In this document: positions 6,111 to 43,008 of the stretch, one piece after another | Numbering within the stretch: the stretch's first letter is position 1 | Layout of the letters: each line of letters opens with the position of its first letter | DNA from: Apostichopus japonicus | Lineage: Eukaryota; Echinodermata; Holothuroidea; Aspidochirotida; Stichopodidae | Assembly: GCF_037975245.1 (NCBI RefSeq) | Contig: NC_092562.1 | Location: forward strand, 26,646,554 to 26,710,553 | Length of the DNA: 64,000 nt | Direction: 5' to 3' | Position numbers and translations under genes: made by a program | The notes under the pieces: generated by a model | The model's input: the letters and a program-made list of their open reading frames with translations, nothing else | Told to the model about the DNA's origin: nothing | Database searches by the model: none

Positions 6111-6186
6111 ATGACTCGCATAGTGCATTATATATTTGTGACTACCTTGCTTCAGCTACACACTCTCATAATCAATGGGCAGAATG
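6111..6186 (+). CDS. Gene 1 exon 1: signal peptide
   Basis: The ATG opens a 25-codon hydrophobic leader (begins [14 protein letters not shown], ends INGQN) and stops in phase 1 at ATG|gtaaga. The paralogue's first exon (53106-53181) is also 76 nt, phase 1, and ends in nearly the same bases (GGACAAAATG|gtaatg against GGGCAGAATG|gtaaga). An upstream in-frame reading at 6008 belongs to another frame and was not used. Confidence 0.72.

Positions 6187-43008: not shown

Follow-up and report, generated by a model that had tools for sequence, protein, structure and literature searches.

A sea cucumber gene encoding a Tie-type ectodomain followed by a tandem receptor tyrosine phosphatase

A 64,000-nucleotide stretch of the genome of the sea cucumber Apostichopus japonicus (RefSeq assembly GCF_037975245.1, contig NC_092562.1, positions 26,646,554 to 26,710,553 of the forward strand; hereafter the window, in whose numbering all positions are given) carries a gene at 6111..43008 (+) that joins the ectodomain of a Tie receptor to a transmembrane (TM) helix and two protein tyrosine phosphatase (PTP) domains, D1 and D2. 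This architecture is confirmed and chance is excluded: the head matches Tie2 (E 9e-44), Y_phosphatase is found twice in the Pfam scan of the protein (best E 1.2e-130), and a tandem copy has its head exons in the same order. The product is probably a receptor phosphatase that binds ligand with its Tie-type head and supplies the 'off' signal within a set of paired receptors.

To reconstruct the gene, anchors for each module were linked by phase-keeping splice sites (splice-site scoring) and the model was refined with the annotated tandem paralogue P0001, which revealed a short exon at 30052-30089 and a later start (31876) of the next exon. The final model has 34 exons and encodes 1716 aa; all 33 introns are GT..AG and the single stop is terminal. 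The Pfam scan, Tie2 alignment, pair identities and trees described below are based on a version of 33 exons and 1711 aa that differs solely at residues ~1102-1115. All exons lie on the + strand. Exon 1 (6111..6186) provides the start codon and signal peptide according to the exon reconstruction. The structure of a paralogue identified exon 2 (6883..7206) as Ig1, similar to Tie2 Ig1, and, together with the Tie2 comparison, exon 3 (8053..8319) as Ig2, homologous to Tie2 Ig2. EGF1, EGF2 and EGF3 were assigned by Tie2 alignment to exons 4 (13857..13991), 5 (15115..15258, with the Tie signature FCL..PYGCSC) and 6 (16084..16215). The exon chain placed EGF4 and EGF5, which are additional to vertebrate Tie, in exons 7-8 (17577-17732, 18296-18439) and Ig3 in exon 9 (19471..19764), the latter also on the basis of the first-pass annotation and the paralogue structure. 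Five Pfam fn3 stretches cover exons 10-16 (24325-24636; 25172-25248+25578-25809; 26842-27165; 27812-27888+28364-28571; 28827-29153). The exon chain then leads to the TM helix (exon 17, 29579..29654, entered in phase 1), and comparison with P0001 defined exon 18 (30052..30089), short and carrying the basic stop-transfer stretch PKRSKS, and exon 19 (31876..32072), with the juxtamembrane segment and the beginning of D1. By Pfam and motifs, D1 occupies exons 20-27 (32366..36678), its P-loop Ser codon being split across 35213/36077, and D2 occupies exons 28-34 (37196..43008), with HCINGVGRTG, without WPD and with the stop at 43006-43008. Every exon from 2 (Ig1) to 17 (TM) starts in phase 1 apart from 12 and 15, which complete the split modules FN3-2 and FN3-4; most module exons, the TM exon included, thus show the phase pattern expected of exchangeable extracellular modules. 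The first-pass annotation of this DNA had claimed an unbroken, phase-consistent exon chain of 1716 residues, and this rebuilding, with 34 exons and GT..AG at every intron, recovers it. The module order proposed there (Ig modules, five EGF, Ig, five FN3, TM, D1 and D2) is borne out by Pfam, the Tie2 alignment and the paralogue structure.

The second copy of the gene starts at 54180 and extends to the window end (54180..64000, +), with exon matches at 55927, 57050, 58677, 59804, 61820, 63159 and 63886. P0001 is 94-100% identical to this copy where it maps and matches the first copy less well. As its annotated sequence runs past the window through the FN3s, TM and PTP including D1, both copies have the Tie-head/PTP architecture. 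Between the two heads, Ka/Ks is 0.31 over 414 codons (Ig2 0.64, EGF4 0.55); averaged over the heads, selection is purifying, which fits functional genes. The annotated first exon of P0001 (54180-54269) does not resemble a signal peptide, which makes the 5' end of that model doubtful. A second, weaker EGF3 match (67%, P0001) lies at 62046-62144 behind the EGF3 exon of this copy and is perhaps a duplicated or alternative exon.

In the Pfam scan the EGF and Ig modules were weak or absent, and they were recognised through Tie2 and the structure of a paralogue. EGF1 and EGF2 align with Tie2, as had been claimed from their motifs, and the EGF1, EGF2 and FN3-1 motifs named in the first-pass annotation are all present in the protein. 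Ig1-Ig2-EGF1-3 shows the Tie fold (structure on paralogue P0011) together with the EGF2 signature; Ig2 is the module through which Tie2 binds angiopoietin. A profile hidden Markov model (HMM) of Ig2-EGF1-3, seeded with the window protein and human Tie2, was run on 254 proteins (253 from databases and the window protein). Full Tie cores reach at least 134 bits, against 52-71 bits for six MEGF/PEAR-type controls and 76 and 90 bits for two proteins of insects with EGF and FN3 modules. Generic MEGF/PEAR EGF repeats (P0065, P0066, P0072, P0074, P0075, P0237) match in the EGF part only and were rejected, as were the insect proteins P0078 (76 bits) and P0077 (90 bits), in which the match is likewise confined to the EGF part. 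On the head tree, the window's head clusters with other Tie-headed proteins; a grouping with a known receptor PTP (RPTP) family, one of the outcomes to be checked for, was not seen.

D1 has intact motifs (KNRF, which is KNRY-like, WPDMNVP and HCx5R) and, with one TM helix ahead of two PTP domains, the protein is a tandem RPTP. In D2, HCINGVGRTG is present and WPD is missing, so that D1 is predicted by motif to be catalytic and D2 is probably inactive. The Pfam scan found no cytoplasmic kinase, the two Y_phosphatase domains standing there instead, and no MAM domain among 11 families at E up to 0.1. The D2 P-loop carries Asn at the position of the D1 Ala, which resembles D2 of the R2B group. Of the solved tandem structures, RPTP-alpha comes closest (2e-124). 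PTPRK heads the listed single-PTP chains in its score with D1 (244.8 bits), and with PTPRT, PTPRM and PTPRA within 12 bits these scores are too close to assign D1 to a subfamily. In a quick tree of 102 D1 rows, the window belongs to a 19-row holothurian set (starred 99) inside a 68-row, mostly echinoderm set (starred 95) that takes in four molluscan rows. PTPRF falls in a separate set (starred 98), so that the window D1 does not group with R2A (LAR); PTPRT is placed apart from it without support. In the same tree, the D1s of the Tie-headed amphioxus proteins P0123 and P0195 cluster with PTPRF-like sequences and the echinoderm ones do not; one ancient vertical fusion visible in both trees was therefore not adopted as an explanation. 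The 21 head changes counted on the D1 tree were not used, as the label 'o' takes in truncated gene models.

The distribution of the Tie core was analysed in a protein set made of the best 78, 120 and 120 matches of three length-limited searches, in which rows are database entries, not genes, and 130 bits or more defines a Tie core. At least 169 of the 254 rows carry it: 114 with PTP, 19 with a kinase, 3 with seven TM helices and 33 with none of these detected. A further 17 rows score 60-130 bits; some are truncated Tie-type models, excluded from the 169. The Tie-core PTP rows, at least 114, come from Holothuroidea (35), Asteroidea (32), Echinoidea (18), Chelicerata (10), amphioxus (6), Hemichordata (4), Crinoidea (3), Ophiuroidea (3) and unassigned entries (3), and the kinase rows, at least 19, from Asteroidea (10), amphioxus (7), Ophiuroidea (1) and an unassigned entry (1). 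Chelicerate Tie cores among the matches listed carry PTP in 10 of 12 rows and a kinase in none of the 12. P0005 of Holothuria has the same order as the window protein over nearly its full length, and Tie-PTP proteins are also encoded by three 'lgn' contigs, probably assembled from public reads: 2082 aa on 7068 bp, 2112 aa on 7686 bp and 1854 aa on 5733 bp; with no room for introns, these contigs look like transcripts. The finding that would have divided the gene in two, namely transcripts of separate head and PTP genes, is made unlikely by the head-plus-PTP order in models of other echinoderm classes, hemichordates, amphioxus and chelicerates. Among the chelicerates, spiders (P0210, P0213, P0225, P0226) and a tick (P0203) have a second class of these receptors, distinguished by an extra PF03815 (LCCL) domain. 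Molluscan EGF-bearing RPTPs were examined as relatives and rejected: nine of ten PTP proteins score 17-49 bits, without the EGF2 signature, and P0081 gave no match. As they have no Tie core, no molluscan case is claimed. Database names for the proteins of the set are RPTP F, T, mu, kappa and alpha and 'angiopoietin-1 receptor-like', and the sequences are therefore already deposited. No description of a Tie-headed phosphatase or of kinase/phosphatase pairs was found among the matches listed from the open-licence literature. The head is known and the enzyme is known; the combination appears to be new.

The closest kinase and phosphatase heads occur within one genus. Identities in ectodomain/TM/cytoplasmic part are 90/19/26% for P0073-P0043 and 84/5/22% for P0211-P0140 in Asterias, 83/24/28% for P0242-P0188 and 64/33/17% for P0223-P0165 in Patiria, 71/24/26% (core 92%) for P0216-P0128 in the brittle star Amphiura, and 81/33/26% for P0251-P0183 and 83/63/24% for P0249-P0195 in amphioxus (Branchiostoma). 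Eleven of the 19 kinase rows have a same-genus PTP partner with a head identity of 78-95%, in each case above that of any other-genus kinase (47-69%). On quick trees of hand-chosen rows, a single clade of all kinases (17 of 61 rows) was rejected with p 8e-58, a result whose likelihood gap of 1362 is so large that the constrained tree was probably poorly optimised, and a clade of the 11 echinoderm kinase rows was rejected with p 5e-5; the 78-95% head identities carry the point better. Kinase/phosphatase changes on the head tree number 14 in 159 rows and 14 in the 61 chosen rows versus a shuffled mean of 14.9, counts that describe scatter, the partners in the smaller set having been chosen on purpose. 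The kinase of P0242 is Tie-like (Tie2 2e-87, RET 5e-70), with the EGFR-named chain 9p9u scoring above both; that of amphioxus P0251 is nearest to FGFRs (1e-83, below 9p9u) and is accompanied by a SAM domain. If the gene models are right, the output was exchanged at least twice, the break falling at or close to the junction of ectodomain and TM.

Other outputs were also found on the same head. In the sea cucumber the outputs observed comprise tandem PTP, single D2-like PTP, adhesion GPCR and none detected. P0047 and P0049 (A. japonicus) and P0062 (Holothuria) combine the head with GPS and 7tm_2, and P0045 combines it with a C-type lectin. P0006, P0007, P0009, P0010 and P0013, paralogues on a 46.0 Mb contig, have the head with a single D2-like PTP; in the four that were aligned (P0006, P0007, P0010, P0013) the WPD aspartate is missing, which makes them likely pseudophosphatase receptors. 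In amphioxus, P0183, P0240, P0243 and P0251 carry one or two Fibrinogen_C domains in the same chain as a Tie-type head, with PTP, kinase or no detected output.

The window protein was compared with known systems. It shares with Tie1/Tie2 (TEK) the Ig1-Ig2-EGF1-3-Ig3-FN3 order, the EGF2 signature and the three-dimensional fold, but has two EGFs and two FN3s more than the Tie layout, and a tandem phosphatase in place of the kinase. With R2B receptors (PTPRM/K/T/U) it has in common TM plus tandem PTP, the best D1 score (PTPRK, single-PTP chains listed) and the Asn in the D2 P-loop, whereas it bears a Tie head and no MAM in the Pfam scan. Ig and FN3 modules ahead of a tandem PTP recall R2A (LAR/PTPRF, S, D), but its D1 lies outside the supported PTPRF-containing group and LAR is not known to have EGF modules. 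Paired immune receptors of the KIR, SIRP and Ly49 type have near-identical heads, opposing outputs and clustered genes, the opposition passing through ITAM/ITIM adaptors; Tie-head pairs would oppose each other through kinase and phosphatase domains within the receptors themselves. In vertebrates, VE-PTP (PTPRB) is a receptor phosphatase that dampens Tie2. PMC5336234 describes it with an FN3 ectodomain and a single PTP. It acts on Tie without a Tie head of its own, whereas the window protein bears one.

Tie2 signals by ligand-driven clustering and is bound by angiopoietins through their fibrinogen domain. We propose that the head of the window receptor would bind an oligomeric fibrinogen-domain ligand (angiopoietin-like or FREP) or homotypic partners, that ligand-driven clustering would bring D1 beside phosphotyrosine proteins, either like-headed receptors or their adaptors, and that D1 would then strip phosphate to give an 'off' signal. 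Near-identical heads on kinase, phosphatase or other outputs would make up the paired set. FREPs are described in PMC5638244 as the most expanded A. japonicus family and as induced in visceral regeneration. A fibrinogen-domain ligand is the best guess because of the angiopoietin precedent, the Fibrinogen_C domains in amphioxus Tie-head chains and this FREP expansion. Such pairs occur in the gene models of sea stars, the brittle star and amphioxus; none was seen in the sea cucumber. The suggestion that the receptor may antagonise a Tie kinase gains weight by analogy from these pairs. Tie-headed kinases were found in 0 of the 43 holothurian Tie-core rows among the matches listed (rows, not genes, from two species, with isoforms and assemblies merged).

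Besides this absence, several points weigh against our proposal. The remaining 8 of the 19 kinase rows lack a closely matching PTP head (identity 43-55%); three of these rows share identical heads and are probably isoforms. The pairs come from database gene models and, in 6 of 7, the partners lie on equal-sized contigs, probably the same chromosome, so that mis-joined neighbouring models are the main caution. On the head tree, the long branch of human Tie2 attaches to an amphioxus protein instead of the set that holds the window's head, which argues for kinship to Tie and not for one-to-one orthology. EGF-bearing RPTPs of molluscs lack the Tie core. FREP binding is suggested by analogy, and the receptor, with its predicted ligand binding and enzyme activity, is known here from genomic DNA and gene models.

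Three other explanations were considered. Firstly, the gene could encode an adhesion or self-recognition RPTP of the mu/kappa/LAR kind with borrowed EGF and Ig modules, binding matrix or itself, not angiopoietin-like ligands, and, in sea cucumbers, working without a paired kinase. In its favour, adhesion is the typical role of RPTPs, D1 is closest in score to PTPRK, followed by PTPRT, PTPRM and PTPRA (single-PTP chains listed), the FN3 arrays share their fold with LAR and PTPRM ectodomains, and a holothurian kinase partner is absent among the matches listed. However, the head is specifically Tie by its HMM score, which separates it from the MEGF/PEAR and insect proteins, and sister classes have paired kinases; we consider this explanation somewhat unlikely. 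Secondly, the tandem heads may belong to an immune-type paired or diversified family, in which heads diversify to recognise a multitude of FREPs or of microbial ligands and are coupled to outputs that activate, inhibit or act as decoys. The large holothurian set (at least 43 Tie-core rows in two species, several on same-sized contigs), its varied outputs (PTP, single D2-like PTP, 7TM, none detected), the scatter of the effector label over the head tree and the FREP expansion are consistent with it. However, the heads of the two window copies are under overall purifying selection (Ka/Ks 0.31, Ig2 0.64), and this explanation, with its putative immune role, is doubtful. Thirdly, although similar genes are clustered in tandem, the gene is known here from genomic DNA, and 2.2 kb with a reverse-transcriptase remnant (taken in part as coding by the partial model P0003) and the short exon 18 separate the TM exon from the PTP exons, a wrong joining of adjacent Tie-like ectodomain and RPTP genes is highly improbable, since the TM exon is in phase without a stop, the same order recurs in P0001, Holothuria P0005, other echinoderm classes, hemichordates, amphioxus and chelicerates, and whole Tie-PTP proteins are encoded on single 5.7-7.7 kb contigs.

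Our proposal of a Tie-headed receptor phosphatase thus keeps the earlier idea that a Tie-like ectodomain was joined to the opposite activity, by homology, an in-frame TM exon and two PTP domains of which D1 is intact, and lends no support to a recent single joining: the combination seems to be of old origin, with apparently frequent changes of effector. More tentatively, the Tie-type head could be a cassette for reading ligands that is ancient in bilaterians and can be exchanged between receptors. Among deuterostomes other than vertebrates, exchange or gene conversion close to the exon boundary of ectodomain and TM would have kept it near-identical on linked kinases and phosphatases, so that one fibrinogen-domain ligand is read as opposing signals; vertebrates would have kept the kinase half only, and of the two combinations the one with the phosphatase may have come first.

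Further features were noted in introns and flanking sequence. Intronic open frames resembling reverse transcriptases, as judged from translations, lie at 9469-12503 (+), 20729-22759 (-) and 30971-31279 (+), the last downstream of the TM exon and ahead of the PTP exons; within it, P0003 takes 31136-31270 as coding. Long TA-type microsatellites (13955-14294, 15488-15760, 20400-20600, 22663-22850 and others) give rise to spurious IYIY open frames on both strands. A full-length U2 small nuclear RNA match (41592-41810, -, 55 bits, Rfam RF00004), gene or pseudogene, lies in the intron between exons 32 and 33. Between the gene copies, 52404-52738 holds two direct repeats of 122 nt that share 84% identity and lie 213 nt apart, and a tRNA-Tyr was called at 1841-1913.

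Receptor kinases and receptor phosphatases are usually regarded as separate families that meet through their substrates. If our proposal is true, opposing enzymes carry nearly the same ligand-binding half, an arrangement that would open 'one ligand, opposite outputs' to direct testing, redraw the origin of the angiopoietin-Tie system and provide a natural design for turning a receptor off. In the sea cucumber, the Tie-headed proteins would be candidate receptors for the FREPs that are expanded and induced in visceral regeneration.
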